DNA from: an uncultured Thermoguttaceae bacterium
GTDB taxonomy: Bacteria > Planctomycetota > Planctomycetia > Pirellulales > Thermoguttaceae
Reading direction: 5' to 3'
Length of the DNA stretch: 64,000 nt
Assembly: GCA_938084835.1 (NCBI GenBank)
Contig: CALKER010000020.1
Span: 1-64,000, forward strand
A program made the translations under genes and the position numbers. Positions within the stretch are counted from its first letter, which is position 1; each line of letters begins with the position of its first letter. The notes below the pieces were generated by a model. It did not search any database, was not told the DNA's origin, and worked only from the letters and a program-made list of their open reading frames with translations. This document shows, piece after piece, positions 1,560 to 62,212 of this stretch.

Positions 1560-1632
1560 TACCCCCTAGGGGATTCGAACCCCTGTTTTCGGACTGAGAA
1601 TCCGACGTCCTGGGCCTCTAGACGAAGGGGGC
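1560..1632 (-). tRNA. tRNA-Glu (anticodon CUC)
   Basis: A 73-nt cloverleaf on the minus strand. The acceptor begins GCCCCCT, the anticodon stem TCGGA/TCCGA closes a loop TTCTCAG with anticodon CUC, and the T-arm is AGGGG-TTCGAAT-CCCCT. The discriminator is A and CCA is not encoded. The first acceptor pair is G1:U72 instead of the usual G:C. The tRNA 3' end points at the excisionase and integrase genes, the classical arrangement when an integrative element uses a tRNA 3' end as its attachment site. Confidence 0.93.
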
Positions 1633-27295: not shown

Positions 27296-28162
27296 GTGAT
27301 CATTTTACTGACTAATGACGATGACATTTTTGCGCCCGGTCTGGCTGCGATGAAGCGGGCCCTCTCAGCCTTGGGAGAGGTTTATGTAGTCGCTCCGGCA
27401 AGGGAGCAAAGTGGCGTAGCGCATTCCATAACCTACTTAACTCCGCTCATTATTAAGGAGGTTTACGTCGGTCAGGAGCGTTGGGGGTGGGCTGTGGAAG
27501 GGAGTCCGGCCGATTGCGTTAAGATCGCCGTCAGGGAACTATGTCCGGCTCGGCCGGAGCTGGTCGTCAGCGGCATCAACATGGGACTCAACGCCGGGAT
27601 TAACGTGCTTTACTCGGGTACTGTGGCTGCCGCCATTGAGGGAGCTTTTTTCGGCATTCCCAGCTTTGCCGTGTCGCTCCAATATGACGAACATGCTGAC
27701 TTCGATCGGGCGGCCACAATTGCCAGGCAGATTATTTGCCAGCTAATGAGCAAAAATCTGGGAGGAACACGACTTTTCAACGTAAATATCCCCACGGCAG
27801 CGCTTGTCGGTCGGCCGACAATCCGGGTTGTCCCGATGGACGTCAGTCAATATCGGGAGCAGTACGAAAAGCGGGTGGATCCTTACGGGCGACCTTACTA
27901 TTGGCTTGTGGGAAGTCCACCCACACCTGCGGAGGATGGCCAAACCGACTTATCCGCTCTGGCTCAGGGGCATGTGACTATAACGCCACTCCACTACAAT
28001 ATGACAGAGCAGCGAACTCTCGAGTTATTGTGTGCTGAGGAGTTCATCGTTTGTCCCGACGAATGCGGTGCTGCGATTTCCGAGGGACCCCAAAAGGACT
28101 TGCCCTCTGACCTGCGGAACGTACTGCCCGGCAAGCTGCGTGTGACACGGAAAGTGGGTTAG
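27296..28162 (+). CDS. surE: 5'/3'-nucleotidase SurE
   Basis: A 288-aa SurE-family metal-dependent phosphatase acting on nucleoside monophosphates. It starts with the signature MIILLTNDDDIFAPGL, which carries the paired Asp ligands. It also has PAREQSGVAHSIT and the SGINMGLNAGINVLYSGTV stretch with metal-ligand Asn and Ser. The start is GTG 27296. It is slightly longer than the usual 250 aa. No downstream partner is closely spaced. Cytoplasmic nucleotide salvage or stress role by family. Confidence 0.94.
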   Translation: MIILLTNDDDIFAPGLAAMKRALSALGEVYVVAPAREQSGVAHSITYLTPLIIKEVYVGQERWGWAVEGSPADCVKIAVRELCPARPELVVSGINMGLNAGINVLYSGTVAAAIEGAFFGIPSFAVSLQYDEHADFDRAATIARQIICQLMSKNLGGTRLFNVNIPTAALVGRPTIRVVPMDVSQYREQYEKRVDPYGRPYYWLVGSPPTPAEDGQTDLSALAQGHVTITPLHYNMTEQRTLELLCAEEFIVCPDECGAAISEGPQKDLPSDLRNVLPGKLRVTRKVG

Positions 28163-28395
28163 CTGTGTTCCCTAGCTGAGAACTGGCTTTTAGAATCGCT
28201 TCGATCTACCTTTCGATCGAGATATCGGGAAAATGTGAATCAGGTGTGAATCAGGGAAGTGTGACAACTAACTTTGGGCAATCCTCTGCGGCCCTATGCC
28301 AGAAAAAGTTTGCGGGAATTGGGGTTTTCAGCCGGGCGTGGCGCGTGGGAATTTATTTGGCCCGTTGGTTGGATTCGGCTGGGGAGGTGGCAATC

Positions 28396-29106
28396 ATGTC
28401 TGTCACGAAAAGTTCTTCTGTAAACGGCTTTTGCTCGCGAGGAGGGATTAATTCGGGCGACGAAATTCGATTTTCTACTGGGGATTGCGAACGAATTTGG
28501 GGGGTTGTGTGGTGTCTTATCCTTGGGGGCCTGCTAGTGATGGGCCTCGTGGGATGCGGGGAGCTAGACTCTTATAGTCGGCCGCAGGTCCGCCCAGATC
28601 GCTACGGAGTGGTGACCAATCCGGAAGATTTGGCTCGGCCGGCCGAGGCGGCCAGCAGCGGGAGTTCGCCGATGACTCCGGCTGCACCGACTAGTTCGTC
28701 TCCCGCTCCGTCGCCGCCGCCAACGGAAATCTCGAGGCCAGCACCTCCCTCGGAAGCCTCCGCTCCGTATTCTCCACCCCTGCAGCCGCCTACTCCACGG
28801 CCGGGATATGTCAGAGAGAGGGCCGGCCTGGGAGCCACCGGAAAGGGTGATTATCGGCCGGGAATCTTAACCACTCCCTTGTCGGTGTATTTCCGTGCGC
28901 AGGAACGAATTGTTTTCGAAAGCCAAATTCCTCATGCAATGCGGCTGTACCATGCCACAAATGGTCGGTACCCTGCGTCATGGGAAGAGTTCGAGAGGGA
29001 AATACTGGTCCCGAACGGTATTCGGTTGCCTCAGCTGCCGCCCGGGCACAAGTACCACTACGATCCACAAACCGGGCAACTAATGATCGAAAAGCCCGCG
29101 CCTTAG
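28396..29106 (+). CDS. Proline-rich lipoprotein
   Basis: About 236 aa from ATG 28396, supported by GGAGG eight nt upstream; the frame extends up to GTG 28246. A hydrophobic segment ends in the lipobox LVGC, predicting lipidation. A Pro/Ser/Ala-rich linker follows (SSPAPSPPPTEISRPAPPSE). The folded C-terminus contains RAQERIVFESQIPHAMRLYH and YPASWEEFEREIL, a pattern seen in small planctomycete lipoproteins. Function unknown. Confidence 0.72.
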   Translation: MSVTKSSSVNGFCSRGGINSGDEIRFSTGDCERIWGVVWCLILGGLLVMGLVGCGELDSYSRPQVRPDRYGVVTNPEDLARPAEAASSGSSPMTPAAPTSSSPAPSPPPTEISRPAPPSEASAPYSPPLQPPTPRPGYVRERAGLGATGKGDYRPGILTTPLSVYFRAQERIVFESQIPHAMRLYHATNGRYPASWEEFEREILVPNGIRLPQLPPGHKYHYDPQTGQLMIEKPAP

Positions 29107-29697
29107 CGATCGTGTCCTTTCTGCAAAGATCAGCTTCGCAGAGGTGCTTCCACACGCCCTTCTGCCAAATGGCTTCTCGGCCGCAGAATGAATTCCATCC
29201 GCACCCGGGTGAATTTTCGTCTTTCATTTTCACCGCACGGGAAAGGCGGCTCCGTATCATGCGATTATTCGGCGGCAGGATTTCGCGTTGGCGTTCAAAG
29301 GGCTGCCTCCACCGATAAGGGGCCCGTATCGCACAATAGCGACCAAGATCCTGGCTTTGAAACCACAATCATTTTCCTGCGGGAACCTGGGGCCGCACTC
29401 GCCGACGCGGAAACCCACTGGGAGCCCGGGACCAAGGAGATCACACGGCGGCGGTTTTTATTGGCGTCAATTAGGCCGCCTGATTAAACTCGACATAATG
29501 AGGGATACCGACATATACGGTTCCCGATGACTACACTTGTGGCCTGAAGATGAGGGCGTGGGACCGGAAAGCCGTCTTCGTTGGGGGTGGAGGGATTCCC
29601 CGGACAAGCTGGACTCCGTTCAAAAGTGGAAGCGGAAACGCTGTCCTTTGGGAACTGGCAGACAAGCCGGGATCCTTTTTCCGGTAGAGATCACTTA
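29107..29697. other. Gene-free spacer
   Basis: About 590 bp. I see no supported ORF, RNA or repeat. Confidence 0.4.
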
Positions 29698-30240
29698 ATG
29701 CTTGGCTGGAGACGAAAATCCATTCGAAAAGCTCTCTGGTGGGTTCTCTTGCCGCTGTTGGTGGCGTTCGCGGTTTCAACGGGCGCATTTGGCTCTCAGT
29801 GGGTGTTTATGCGTTCGAGCTATTCCCACTCGGCGGACGGTTCTCGTCGGGTGGTCCAGTATGCTCCCGAACCCACGGTAGTTTTGCAGCATGACCCGAC
29901 ATTTCTTCGGAGTGGTTTCCGGCACTCGGAGATGCATCTTCGCAGCGGCCGAAGTGCCGATCGATTCCACTTGGTGGAGACTTGGGGGCAGGGGGCCTAC
30001 GTCCGACCATATGGCGAGTGGGAATATCCCTTCCGCGCGGGAGCAACCCCTTTTGGCCCGTGGGGAAATCCCCAGGGTCCGTGGACCACGCCGTTTGGGG
30101 CGTGGGTTAATCCGTATGGGCTGGGGCAACTCCCGTCCCCGCCGTGGTACCTTTATTGGCCTGGAGGAGGCCCATATCTAATGCCCGGTCCGGTGTTGGT
30201 GCTGCCCGGAGGTACTCCACCCGGCGGTGGTTCACCCTAA
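29698..30240 (+). CDS. Small exported Pro/Gly/Trp-rich protein
   Basis: About 180 aa from ATG 29698 (MLGWRRKSIRKALWWVLLPL), a strong signal sequence. The C-terminal half repeats aromatic/Pro/Gly motifs: TPFGPWGNPQGPWTTPFGAW and VNPYGLGQLPSPPWYLYWPG. It ends in PPGGGSP. This is probably an extracytoplasmic low-complexity protein; no family recognised. The frame is open upstream to 29581 without a good start. Confidence 0.62.
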   Translation: MLGWRRKSIRKALWWVLLPLLVAFAVSTGAFGSQWVFMRSSYSHSADGSRRVVQYAPEPTVVLQHDPTFLRSGFRHSEMHLRSGRSADRFHLVETWGQGAYVRPYGEWEYPFRAGATPFGPWGNPQGPWTTPFGAWVNPYGLGQLPSPPWYLYWPGGGPYLMPGPVLVLPGGTPPGGGSP

Positions 30241-30758: not shown

Positions 30759-31757
30759 ATGTCGGGAATCCGTCGCTTTGCCCTCTTTTTACTGTTTTGC
30801 GTCGGAGCAGCAGGCCTGGGATACCTTCTTTGGGCTGTGCAGTCGGGAACTTTATTGAGTCTTTTGACGTCGGATTCACAAGGCGCGGGTGCGCCGGTGC
30901 GCGCCGAGGGTCCTCCGGCACGGTCTGCCTCGGCAGGGGCAAGCGGGATGAAACCGCTGCGTTTAGCGGTGTTCTATCCCGGACCAATTGACCCTGCCCG
31001 TGTGAGGGATCCGGCCTATGTGCGACATTTTGCGGAGATCGTTCGACACTTTGATTTGGTGGCCGTGCATGGATTTCGCGGACCTGGGCGGGGCCCATTC
31101 CTACCGCTCTTGGAGGCCGTCTCGACAGGCGAGCGCTCCTACCAATCTCTTGTCTTCGTACCCCCACGGGGGCCAGAGGTCCGACAGTTCCCCATCGTAT
31201 TCTACGACCCGGAAACGCTTCTTGTGGACAAAACACGAGCGGGTCCTATCGAGGATCCCAATCGGCTTTTCCGATGGACACCGATCGTCATTAGCTGTGC
31301 AGCGAAAAAGCCAGATCTTTCGGAGGCATTTACTTTCACAGCCGTGATTGCCCGCGTAGATCCTCTACGAATTCCTAACGAATTGGCCTTGCTTGCCGAC
31401 CTAATGCGGGTGGTTCTTTATCAACACGCACCTGAGGATGACGTTCTCCTTCTTGCTCATCTGGAAGCAACTGAAGACGCCGTAGCGGAGGCTTTTCCGG
31501 AATATCTGGCCGCGGTGACGGGAGTGCCGAATTCGGCAGCTGGCACCCGTTTGGCCTCCAACATTTTGTTTCATCCGATGGCCACCTGTGAGTTTACCGG
31601 GCGAAGCGGCGTGCTCTCGGTGGACGAAATCCTCCAAGGTGCCGATCGTCGCGTGTTGGAACCCCTCCATTTCTTGCCCGTGTGGGCCGAATTCCTCCCG
31701 ATAGAGACTCCCTTTGATCGCTTCACAACGGCAATTTTCGATATTTCCGTCTTTTAG
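30759..31757 (+). CDS. Membrane-anchored DNase I-fold (EEP) protein lacking catalytic residues
   Basis: A 332-aa protein with an N-terminal membrane anchor (about 6-27) and an endonuclease/exonuclease/phosphatase-type domain from about 66. The fold landmarks are clear: IVRHFDLVAV, AFTFTAVIARVDP, PEDDVLLLAHLEA, ASNILFHPMATCEFTGRSGV and LPVWAEF. At each catalytic site the expected residues are replaced: FN becomes FYP (72-74), QE becomes HG (104-105), H-T-DP becomes ARVDP (198-202), GDLNAD becomes AHLEAT (233-238), and SDHLP becomes LHFLP (303-307). It is therefore predicted to be non-nucleolytic, perhaps a binding protein. Fold assignment is firm; the role is unknown. Confidence 0.78.
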   Translation: MSGIRRFALFLLFCVGAAGLGYLLWAVQSGTLLSLLTSDSQGAGAPVRAEGPPARSASAGASGMKPLRLAVFYPGPIDPARVRDPAYVRHFAEIVRHFDLVAVHGFRGPGRGPFLPLLEAVSTGERSYQSLVFVPPRGPEVRQFPIVFYDPETLLVDKTRAGPIEDPNRLFRWTPIVISCAAKKPDLSEAFTFTAVIARVDPLRIPNELALLADLMRVVLYQHAPEDDVLLLAHLEATEDAVAEAFPEYLAAVTGVPNSAAGTRLASNILFHPMATCEFTGRSGVLSVDEILQGADRRVLEPLHFLPVWAEFLPIETPFDRFTTAIFDISVF

Positions 31758-32727: not shown

Positions 32728-33924
32728 GTGAACATTGGTCTCGATCTGTACCTAGCCCTGAGTGCGGCGATGTTTCTGGAATATGCAATCTGGGGTGCGT
32801 GGGCACCGGTTTTAGCGGCCCGGTTGTTGGGGCCTCTCCAAATGTCGGGGCGACAGACGGGCTGGATTTACGCCACATTACCCCTTGCCTGCATCTACGC
32901 GCCGCTTATCTCGGGATTCCTAGCTGATGCGTATTTTCCTATCAAGTGGCTTCTTGCAGTTTGCCAGTTGTTGACAGGGATTTTTTTATTGTTGGCGGCC
33001 AATATTCGTACTTTCTGGCCACTGTTGGCAGTGATGCTTCTTCACTCTACGTTTTACGCGGCGACATTGCCTTTGGTGAATGCCATTTTGTTTGTCAATG
33101 TCAAGGATTCGGTTACGCAATCGCTGGTCTTCCTGTGGGCTCCGGTAGCATGGGCTTTAGTCGGATACGCGCTTACGGGTTGGCGGTGGGTGTTTAAAAC
33201 GGAAAAGGAAGGACGTGACTGCCTCATTTTCGGCGGGGTACTCGCCCTGGTGATGGCGGCCGTCTGCGCGATATTCCTGCCCACCAATCAGCCGGAGGCA
33301 ACGGGCAAAATCCCCGTAGTGGAAGCTTTGGCCAAATTGCAGGACCTGGATTTCCTGCTTTTCTTTGTGGTCTCGCTTGTGGCGGCCGGGATGATGCAGT
33401 TTTACTTCCTGGGCTCGGCTCGGTTCATGCAGGAGATCGGAATTGCAGCCCAGAATGTGCCCGGTATTATGGCAATTGCCCAAGCGGTGCAGGCTTTGGC
33501 TACTTGGTTTCTGTTAGGGGTGGTGGTGAGACCAGAAAGCTTAGGATACAAGTGGACACTTGTGGTGGGGCTTCTGTGCTGGGGTGTGCTTTACTTGGTG
33601 TACTTATTGGGACGGCCACGGGTGTTGATTGCGGTGATCCAGGCGTTCCACGGATTGGCTTACGTGTTCTTTATGATTGCCGGGCAGATGTACGCCAATG
33701 CCGTGGCTGAAGAGGCCATCCGAAGTTCCATGCAAGCGCTGATATTCATGGCCACGACAGGGGTGGGACTTTTCTTAGGGACACAGTTGGCTGGTGCGGT
33801 TATGGATTGGGCCAGGACCGGTGAACGCTTTGAGTGGCGGCGAGTGTGGATGGTTCCTGCGGTCATCCTGGCAATATGTTTTCTTGCCATGGCCATCATT
33901 TTCCAGGGTAAGGCCGCCGGTTAG
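32728..33924 (+). CDS. MFS transporter, nucleoside:H+ symporter-like
   Basis: A 398-aa protein with about 12 membrane helices. The start region (LALSAAMFLEYAIWGAWAPV) and QTGWIYATLPLACIYAPLIS match the nucleoside:proton symporter (NupG/XapB-like) branch of the major facilitator superfamily. GTG 32728 follows GGGGAG. NupG-type transporters import nucleosides with protons; planctomycete relatives may carry other small molecules. Single gene. Confidence 0.85.
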   Translation: MNIGLDLYLALSAAMFLEYAIWGAWAPVLAARLLGPLQMSGRQTGWIYATLPLACIYAPLISGFLADAYFPIKWLLAVCQLLTGIFLLLAANIRTFWPLLAVMLLHSTFYAATLPLVNAILFVNVKDSVTQSLVFLWAPVAWALVGYALTGWRWVFKTEKEGRDCLIFGGVLALVMAAVCAIFLPTNQPEATGKIPVVEALAKLQDLDFLLFFVVSLVAAGMMQFYFLGSARFMQEIGIAAQNVPGIMAIAQAVQALATWFLLGVVVRPESLGYKWTLVVGLLCWGVLYLVYLLGRPRVLIAVIQAFHGLAYVFFMIAGQMYANAVAEEAIRSSMQALIFMATTGVGLFLGTQLAGAVMDWARTGERFEWRRVWMVPAVILAICFLAMAIIFQGKAAG

Positions 33925-54356: not shown

Positions 54357-55886
54357 TTAGTCCCGACGTGGACTGATGGTAGTTTCCGATCGTCGTTGGG
54401 CGGCATACCAGGCTCGCCACCGGTTTTGGTCGAAACCAAAGTTCACCCCACCGGTGAGAGTTACCAAGGCATCGAGGACTTGCCTATTTTGCACAGCTTG
54501 GGTAACTACCGTGGGTCCCCCGCCCACGGAAAATCCCGTACCTCCAGTACCAAAACTTGTGGTGATCTGACCCGGGTTACCGCTCGCAATCTTGATCTTG
54601 TGTGTTGTTACTAAGGCCTCGATCAACGCTCCGACGGCCGATGGGTCTCCTAGGGCAGCCAGAGCTACTGCCGCTCGGTTTACCTCCACATTATCCGCGC
54701 TCCGTAACCTGCCCACGAAGTAGTCCACGACGGCGGGGCTGTGACGCTTCTTTAAATGGTCGAGACAAGTGAGGCGAACTTCTTCCGCCGGATCGGCCAA
54801 AGCCCAGTAAGCTAAGGCCTGCTCGGCCCGAGTTGTTCCAATCCGCGCCAGGGCATCAACGAAAAGGAGGCGAGCCCATGGGCGTTTTTCGCTCTTGAGG
54901 GCATCGACCAATGCGTTCACGGCAAAAGGATCGTTAATTTGAGCAATTTGTTCACGGGCAAGGGCTCCGCGATTGGTATCGAGCCAACCTTGCCAACGAT
55001 TGATTTTTTGCTTCCATTCACTCTGGGCGGTCTCGATTTTTTGCTTCTGTTCCATGAGGCGGACCACCTGCGGCAGCACCCATCTGCCACCGTAAAGAAC
55101 GTAACCGTCGGCCCGCATGAGCTCCTCGCGAGTTGTCCACTGACCATCTCGCGAAATATATCCCAGGAGGCGCCGGGCCTCGGTGTGATTTGGGTCAAGC
55201 TCAAGAATTCGCCGCAGATGACGTTCTCGCTCGGCATTGAGCGATCGCTCCCGACACCACTCCGCAAGTTGCCAATGTCCGTCCACCGTGTCGGGCAGTT
55301 GGGGCCAAAGCGCTTCGTATTCAACTAATTCTTTGCGGATTTGCGCGAAATCCTCTACAAGCTCTCGCGGAATGGTCACTTCCATCGAATTGTTCAGTCG
55401 CACCCGAAAGCTTTTGCGGGGCAACTCAGTCGGGTTGAGCAACTCACCAACGACCTCACTTCCCGTGGTTAGCTTAATCCGCACGAAAGACGAGCCGTGT
55501 GGTCCTTCCTTTGACGGGCCTTCCAGTAATTTCGGAGTGGGCTCGGCCAGAGGGGGATTTTCTGGAGATAAACCCCCAACACTTTCGCCAAAGCTATGAC
55601 CACCTCCCCAGCACCACAACCACACTACGGCGACACCACAAGCGGCAATTTTGCCTAGTACTGTGATCGTAAATTGGTGACCGAGCGCGTCCCGAGGGGG
55701 TGCTTGGGGTGGGCTAGCCCAAAAAAAGCTTTCTCGACCCATCAGAGGATCCTCACCAGCAAGAAGATGCTGCACCCCGAGCAAACTTGGAGTGCGACAT
55801 CCCGAAAACATCCCAGTTTCCCCTGGTGTAGGGAATTTATTCACTATCGCGCTAATGTTACTTGAGTTTCTCCTGGCTGGCATCAT
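54357..55886 (-). CDS. Membrane-anchored HEAT-repeat protein
   Basis: A 509-aa frame from ATG 55886. Met49 at 55742 is an alternative start. A hydrophobic segment (ITVLGKIAACGVAVVWLWCW) sits at about 74-93. A small beta domain follows (SFVRIKLTTGSEVVGELLNP), then a helical linker and HEAT-type repeats from about 315 (DPFAVNALVDALKSEKRPWA, AEEVRLTCLDHLKKRHSPAV, LAALGDPSAVGALIEALVT). It resembles the HEAT protein at 20111 in overall plan: exported beta part plus HEAT repeats. Probable protein-binding scaffold. Confidence 0.75.
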   Translation of the reverse strand: MMPARRNSSNISAIVNKFPTPGETGMFSGCRTPSLLGVQHLLAGEDPLMGRESFFWASPPQAPPRDALGHQFTITVLGKIAACGVAVVWLWCWGGGHSFGESVGGLSPENPPLAEPTPKLLEGPSKEGPHGSSFVRIKLTTGSEVVGELLNPTELPRKSFRVRLNNSMEVTIPRELVEDFAQIRKELVEYEALWPQLPDTVDGHWQLAEWCRERSLNAERERHLRRILELDPNHTEARRLLGYISRDGQWTTREELMRADGYVLYGGRWVLPQVVRLMEQKQKIETAQSEWKQKINRWQGWLDTNRGALAREQIAQINDPFAVNALVDALKSEKRPWARLLFVDALARIGTTRAEQALAYWALADPAEEVRLTCLDHLKKRHSPAVVDYFVGRLRSADNVEVNRAAVALAALGDPSAVGALIEALVTTHKIKIASGNPGQITTSFGTGGTGFSVGGGPTVVTQAVQNRQVLDALVTLTGGVNFGFDQNRWRAWYAAQRRSETTISPRRD

Positions 55887-61611: not shown

Positions 61612-61624
61612 AACGGCGATCTTG

Positions 61625-61836
61625 TTTTCTCTGCGGTGGTGGTCGACTCCTCGGCCTGGGGAGCCGACAAACAAGGGAACACCGGTGCAAGTCCGGGACG
61701 GCCCCGCCGCTGTGACCGTGCATGTGGGAAGTCCCACTCGTTTTCGTGGCCATTGTCGCCAGCGATCCGCTTCCGCGGGTCCAGGGGGTGATGAGAAGGC
61801 CGGGACTTCCGACGCGGAAGTCAGCAGACCTACCAC
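61625..61836 (+). ncRNA. Cobalamin riboswitch
   Basis: Conserved AdoCbl/B12-class elements appear in order: AAGGGAACACCGGTGCAAGT with CCGGGACGGCCCCGCCGCTG and TGACC (61673-61720), CCATTGTCGCCAGCG near 61750, GATGAGAAGGCCGGG near 61790, and the B12-box-like GGAAGTCAGCAGACCTACC ending near 61834. Boundaries are approximate. Cobalamin binding normally represses downstream expression. The next plus-strand gene is the DUF1559 protein at 62213, 377 nt on. I see no certain terminator or sequestered RBS hairpin between them, so the expression platform is undetermined. Confidence 0.9.
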
Positions 61837-62212
61837 TGCAGCAGCCGGGTTCGCCTGCGCGGGCAGGTTGCCGGCTAGCGGTGAGGCCTCACTTTGGCGA
61901 TTTAGCCCAGGCTTTATCAGCTTCGGGCGTTCGTATCATCGGGCTGTAAGTGTCGTCCGCGCGAGCGCGCATCGTAAACGGTAAAGTCTGCGGCTCGCTC
62001 ACGGTGATATTCTGCGCCCAGCAAGGGTGCTCTCGGGCCCCAGGCGGTTGGGGGATCGTCAATCTGGGCGATGAACCTCGCGGAGAGTGATCCCTCACCG
62101 GCTTTTTTGCGCCGCTTGTTTTCCCTCAAAGCCATGTAAAACGGAAATGAAGAAACGAGTGAGGGTGCGTGTCAATCCTCCGAATGTCAATTCTCCACAC
62201 AGGAGCTTTAAC

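Follow-up and report, generated by a model that had tools for sequence, protein, structure and literature searches.

The closest described systems are the DNase I-type nucleases and the pseudoenzymes. For DNase I, the part of the source drawn on here names Asn7, Glu39, Asp168 and Asp212 as metal ligands, His134 and His252 as catalytic residues, and Arg41, Arg111 and Asn170 as DNA contacts, and it describes single mutants of Glu39, Asp168 or Asp212 as very low in activity (PMC2987838). Pseudoenzymes are characterized, in the portion of the literature used here, as proteins that have the fold of an enzyme without its catalytic residues and that are kept by selection (PMC5106787). In the open-access literature searched, no description of a planctomycete pseudoenzyme of the DNase I type was found.

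A gene whose product appears to be of this kind is found in the window, i.e., the whole stretch of 64,000 nucleotides that was analysed, which belongs to an uncultured Thermoguttaceae bacterium with a genome of 4.75 Mb in 25 contigs. The gene, for a predicted membrane-anchored pseudo-DNase I of 332 residues, is an uninterrupted, ATG-started frame of 332 codons that occupies exactly positions 30759-31757 of the forward strand, on which all the features of the protein given below also lie. A first, sequence-only reading of this DNA had stated that the gene contains no frameshift and that its product keeps a membrane anchor, and both statements hold: a single frame is open throughout, hydropathy peaks at residues 9-27, and an AlphaFold model places the N-terminal transmembrane helix at residues 2-28 (30762-30842). 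Arg5 and Arg6 precede this helix, from which we infer an N-in topology with the remainder of the protein beyond the membrane; this suggests that the DNase I-fold domain is placed outside the cytoplasm. The helix is followed by a weakly predicted linker (residues 29-66, 30843-30956; pLDDT about 50-66 over residues 31-60), and then by a DNase I/EEP-fold domain (residues 67-316, 30957-31706) recognized by profile comparison, by the model and by structure matches.

On its own, the window protein betrays little of its ancestry. It matched no Pfam family even at E up to 10 and no NCBIfam family, it did not reach the cut-off of PF03372, and a contig scan of genomes with it as the single query returned no match; the only match in a sequence search of the PDB, a sigma factor at 0.06, was discarded as a chance hit. 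Its homology was established through intact relatives, gathered in an alignment of 18 planctomycete homologues (A2, first row L037); a further alignment, A1, has 12 rows. All 18 A2 rows match Exo_endo_phos (PF03372). A search of the bacterium's own genome with the A2 profile recovers the window gene (7.7e-34), and profile-profile comparison of A2 with the three sequences of the window protein's genus aligned 260 columns with a probability of 100 and an E value of 1e-50. A contig scan with A1 as the query yielded 80 loci, and 49 of 60 related genomes contain a match. The AlphaFold model, made with 48 sequences, has a mean pLDDT of 87.8 and places the domain from about residue 67 to 316. Its best Foldseek match is DNase I (4awn, E 3.1e-14), and the best VIA-align match is also DNase I (2a42_B; Z 27.8, rmsd 2.6, 238 residues aligned), with EEPD1 next at 23.6. 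According to the model and the structure match, in which residues 67-313 are aligned, the four-layer DNase I fold is complete. The profile-profile alignment, the model and the match to DNase I thus agree with the initial claim that the chain aligns along the entire EEP domain, and homology over this whole domain is certain.

The active site was scored at 11 positions in bovine DNase I numbering (N7, E39, R41, E78, R111, H134, D168, N170, D212, D251 and H252), including Glu78 and Asp251, which we take to be further active-site positions of DNase I. Read in this order, the intact rows have NERERHDNDDH and the window protein YGRQWRHESHF; in the other two members of the genus compared here, the string is FGRQWRHESHF (Thermoguttaceae bacterium SKYB5, L058, hereafter the sister) and YGRQWQHADAF (an uncultured Thermogutta MAG, L059). 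Ten of the 11 positions are thus replaced in the window protein, and Arg41 is the sole survivor. Tyr73 (30975-30977) replaces Asn7, and Gly105 replaces Glu39 two residues ahead of the retained arginine, Arg107 (31071-31079 for the three residues). Gln143 (31185-31187) replaces Glu78, in a column whose alignment is uncertain, Arg142 adjoining it. Further along, Trp173 (31275-31277) stands for Arg111, Arg199 (31353-31355) for the catalytic His134, His234 and Glu236 (31458-31466) for Asp168 and Asn170 of the old GDxN motif, Ser267 (31557-31559) for Asp212, and His304-Phe305 (31668-31673) for Asp251-His252 of the old SDH motif.

The positions of the DNase I metal ligands are therefore filled by Tyr, Gly, His and Ser and those of the catalytic histidines by Arg and Phe, from which we infer that the window protein would not be catalytically active. 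The sequence-only reading had held that all the catalytic residues are changed, which is right for the residues it named, while the wider set retains Arg41. It had also proposed to check whether homologues conserve the altered residues themselves, and they do: 10 of the 11 site residues are identical between the window protein and the sister, whose domains are 60% identical overall. A sequencing error or frameshift is ruled out, as the replaced site is also present in both other species of the genus compared here. Misalignment of an ordinary active EEP protein is ruled out as well, as the motifs align beside conserved blocks, apart from the uncertain Glu78 column.

Homologues were collected by similarity, and the numbers that follow are therefore not a census: 126 rows were scored, but four of them merely give an alternative start for a gene already counted, which leaves 122 distinct rows, 68 intact at 11/11 and 54 not. 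In a tree of 120 rows, from which the four duplicate starts and the partial rows L027 and L111 were left out, the window protein falls in a side of 37 rows (SH-aLRT 99) that includes no intact member; 30 of these rows keep at most five site residues and seven keep six to nine. The same side was recovered (29 of 29 rows, support 99) in a 95-row tree that was built without the 11 site columns and from which 11 rows that were unstable or had long branches, as well as 14 near-copies, had also been removed. Intactness requires at least eight changes on the tree, four of which are forced by the starred branches, indicating further independent losses. In the rest of the order, orthologues with the full set of residues (11/11) predominate, and intact ones are found in other families. 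It had been proposed that homologues with intact motifs would speak against a conserved non-enzymatic role; such homologues do exist, but outside the clade of the window protein, namely in other families and as second copies in six genomes of its own family. Judged by these residues, the loss of catalysis came early in the history of a large clade, mostly of Thermoguttaceae, and the protein itself was retained. Two marks of a pseudoenzyme, loss of the catalytic residues and descent from an active family, are thus found here.

Within the family, a tally of 119 genomes gave a match in 65 and none in 54, and the protein is thus dispensable in many lineages. The 73 match rows correspond to 71 copies, after two pieces from genome G116 had been merged and one weak, probably chance match (G063:C111, L177) had been dropped; 65 copies retain at most eight of the 11 site residues and six retain all 11. 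Each of the 65 genomes has one degenerate copy, and six of them also hold a second, intact one. The G116 copy (L166) is the only one seen to be split over two reading frames, by a true break or an assembly error. In the genome of the window protein, no second copy was found with the intact A2 profile, and close EEP paralogues were ruled out on this ground, one other PF03372 match having been detected.

The ancestral locus of the gene is common to its intact and degenerate forms. A HEAT-repeat gene is found upstream, on the opposite strand, at 20 of the 95 loci that span at least 5 kb, and in 11 of these 20 it lies beside a degenerate gene. A homologue of this ancestral divergent neighbour is present in the window, at 54357-55886 on the reverse strand, about 23 kb from the pseudo-DNase I gene. 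This neighbour tells of orthology, not of function. Upstream of the pseudo-DNase I gene is a block of three genes on the forward strand (27296-30240), whose order is conserved in SKYB5: a gene at 27296-28162, presumably surE to judge by its sequence, o28246, and an orphan reading frame, o29581 (29581-30240), which has a hydrophobic stretch, a Gly/Pro/Trp-rich tail and no Pfam match, and is 75% identical over 115 residues to its SKYB5 counterpart. In L110, the gene is followed downstream by surE and the o28246 homologue, which run in the opposite orientation, and the linkage to surE may thus predate the genus. Downstream, a nucleoside:H+ symporter gene (Pfam Nuc_H_symport) is located at 32728-33924 of the forward strand, so that the surE-like and symporter genes flank the pseudo-DNase I gene at short distance. 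A function in nucleotide salvage, which these neighbours might evoke, was discarded, as the symporter homologue occurs at no other compared locus and surE only in L058 and L110. Elsewhere, the window carries a cobalamin riboswitch (61623-61851, forward strand; Rfam RF00174, 74.9 bits) and a tRNA gene (1560-1632, reverse strand; Rfam RF00005).

That the degenerate proteins have remained under selection is indicated by several comparisons. NG86 dN/dS ratios were 0.02-0.18 in the eight degenerate pairs and 0.02-0.15 in the seven intact pairs for which they could be computed. The purifying selection expected for a conserved role is thus observed in close degenerate pairs as in intact ones; in the pair formed by the window protein and the sister, on the other hand, dS is saturated, and selection has to be read from codon positions. 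Differences at the three positions amount to 0.33, 0.21 and 0.67, as is typical of a coding gene under constraint. The third mark of a pseudoenzyme, maintenance by selection, is also present, as judged from these codon positions, from conserved residues and from the other pairs.

Conservation is unevenly distributed over the domain. When the 37-row clade was compared with 37 random intact rows, the information kept was 0.52 at catalytic columns, 0.66 within two residues of them, 0.92 at the distal strand ends and 0.76 in the rest; the distal value was equalled once when 5000 sets of columns were drawn at random. None of the 37 clade rows departs from the following eight invariant residues: Asp157 (31227-31229), Phe191-Thr192-Phe193 (31329-31337), which begin the strand ending at the old His134, Glu226-Asp227-Asp228 (31434-31442), which begin the strand ending at the old Asp168, and Glu316 (31704-31706). 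By strand order, these eight residues would lie at strand ends away from the site. The alignments show that selection has continued, throughout the clade, to preserve the fold and that end of the sandwich which is remote from the active site. This conserved far face is common to the intact members and may represent an older, non-catalytic job of the whole family.

The former active-site cleft has had different fates. Here, the cleft denotes the 11 sites and their neighbours in sequence, not residues selected by three-dimensional distance. In the key comparison, which is that of a single species pair, with column classes set after the alignment had been seen and columns treated as independent, the window protein and the sister are identical at 10 of 11 site and 29 of 34 neighbour columns, hence 39 of 45 in the cleft, versus 115 of 212 elsewhere (Fisher 4e-5) and 33 of 49 at the distal ends (Fisher 0.03). 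In the same pair, dN is 0.107 in the cleft and 0.401 in the rest. As a caution, the margin over other pairs is small: in 48 other degenerate pairs of 55-68% identity, mean identity is 0.56 at the site and 0.62 at the neighbours, but neighbours exceed 'other' columns by up to 0.33, versus 0.35 for the window pair, a value that one of 214 further degenerate pairs of 45-55% identity reaches or exceeds. Intact pairs of similar divergence average 0.75 at neighbours and 0.52 at other columns, which indicates that the new cleft is constrained as in an active enzyme.

This constraint is not dictated by the fold, because in another genus, g21, the same columns evolve fast, with a cleft dN of 0.12-0.19 versus 0.04-0.06 elsewhere. 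In the g21 rows (L055, L162, L164, L167, L170 and L175), cleft dN is three to four times that of the rest of an otherwise conserved protein. Positive selection on the g21 cleft was ruled out, as its dN/dS, at 0.16-0.31, is raised yet below 1. In g18 and g22, the cleft is conserved at or above the level of the rest in most pairs, in the one pair available for g34 its conservation falls below that of the rest, and no clear cleft excess is seen in g25 or g29.

The composition of the cleft has changed in the window protein's genus as well. The three members have a net cleft charge of +2, +1 and +2, whereas the 68 intact rows range from -7 to -2 and the remaining 34 rows of the clade from -5 to +2; their clefts hold seven, six and eight aromatic residues, versus means of 3.5 in the intact rows and 3.6 in the other clade rows. 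At the level of sequence, these comparisons show that the former cleft was rebuilt and constrained in this genus rather than merely abandoned, and that, when the two closest species are compared, no other part of the protein is under stronger constraint. Preservation of a rebuilt site suggests that the protein now binds something instead of cutting DNA. The reading that we favor, with a probability of roughly 0.7, is that this pseudo-DNase I uses its rebuilt cleft to bind an anionic ligand or a partner outside the cytoplasm without cutting it. The conserved non-enzymatic role originally put forward gains support from the retention of the altered residues and from the low dN/dS of close degenerate pairs.

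It is also conceivable, although unlikely, that the far face alone is functional, the protein being a pure scaffold whose cleft was conserved in the genus merely for stability after the metal ligands had been lost. The retention of information at the distal strand ends (0.92 of that of intact rows) and the position of all eight invariant residues away from the site in the sequence would fit such a scaffold, and packing residues could stand in for the lost metal sites. However, a role in stability would not predict that the charge of the cleft be reversed to +1 or +2, nor that the cleft be conserved above the distal face (39/45 versus 33/49, Fisher 0.03).

It is less probable still that the protein hydrolyses another phosphoester by means of an active site that has moved or been rebuilt, made up for example of His104, His234, Glu236 and His304. 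The new residues, which include several histidines and one glutamate, are conserved between the two closest species, and a new activity would likewise leave a conserved new cleft. Nevertheless, the third species of the genus has Ala in place of both Glu236 and His304, so that the set is not kept, and the cleft is net basic whereas the site of intact rows is acidic. Finally, that the gene is a dispensable nuclease decaying under relaxed selection, with no present function, is very improbable: the loss of conservation at catalytic columns across the clade, the 54 of 119 family genomes without a match, the split G116 copy and the fast g21 cleft would be compatible with decay, but all frames except that of G116 are open, dN/dS is 0.02-0.18 in degenerate pairs, eight residues are invariant in 37 of 37 clade rows, and the cleft is the slowest part of the protein in the window protein's genus.

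The following history, traced at the level of sequence, could have led to a non-cutting, ligand-binding protein. Planctomycetes of the order possess a membrane- or lipid-anchored DNase I with a complete set of active-site residues. The ancestor of the large clade, most of which is Thermoguttaceae, ceased to maintain the residues for metal binding and catalysis, and in the window protein's genus the acidic metal ligands were then exchanged for Arg, His, Trp, Phe, Gln and Gly. The outcome would be a DNase I-fold pseudoenzyme on a single N-terminal anchor, probably unable to hydrolyse nucleic acids, that might serve as a receptor or scaffold outside the cytoplasm. Its basic, aromatic, metal-free cleft might hold an anionic ligand (DNA, a nucleotide or another polyanion) or a partner protein, uncut, while the conserved far face would dock to a second partner; the type of ligand is deduced from residue types alone. 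We tentatively propose a more specific version, in which the dead DNase I of this genus is a metal-free receptor whose Arg, His and aromatic residues, at the old metal and histidine sites, hold nucleic acid or a polyanion without cutting it. If this were true, a membrane-anchored DNA or polyanion receptor would have been derived from a nuclease, and the family would contain, together, stages that are active, eroding, drifting or rebuilt.

How does this protein compare with known systems? It has the fold of DNase I and DNase gamma (DNase1L3) over the whole domain (Z 27.8 to 2a42_B), but it differs from DNase I by the replacement of 10 of 11 site positions, by its N-terminal membrane anchor, and by an identity of 15% in the structural alignment. 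It would offer a natural, non-cutting version of the DNase I fold. Its intact orthologues from planctomycetes are close to the animal enzymes in sequence: in the PDB, the A2 profile matches DNase gamma (4e-49) and DNase I (2e-45), which makes these orthologues unusually close bacterial kin of both. The A2 homologues also share the SKEQYAF region with animal DNase gamma and DNase I, and, given this kinship, the origin of animal DNase I may deserve a tree with eukaryotic sequences.

The intact planctomycete membrane or lipoprotein EEP nucleases are orthologues of the window protein, with the same ancestral HEAT-repeat locus, the same layout of anchor and EEP domain, and the AFTF, EDD and WAEF blocks in common; they differ from it in their site residues and in that 18 of 18 match PF03372, whereas it matches no Pfam model. 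The NCBIfam membrane nuclease MnuA is a weak relative, matched by five of 12 A1 rows but not by the window protein. With pseudoenzymes in general, as delineated in the part of the source used here, the window protein shares a fold kept by selection without catalytic residues (PMC5106787). New here is that in this genus the net charge of the cleft is reversed, its aromatic residues are doubled, and it is the most conserved part of the protein between the closest species. Many members of the family lie at a recognisable locus, which makes direct testing of the change from nuclease to binder possible. While pseudoenzymes are usually recognised singly, one bacterial family here spans the range from active-looking relatives to stepwise loss of the site, and its empty cleft drifts in one genus and has been re-fixed with reversed charge in another, so that entire stages of decay can be followed, along with one rebuilt cleft, within a single family.
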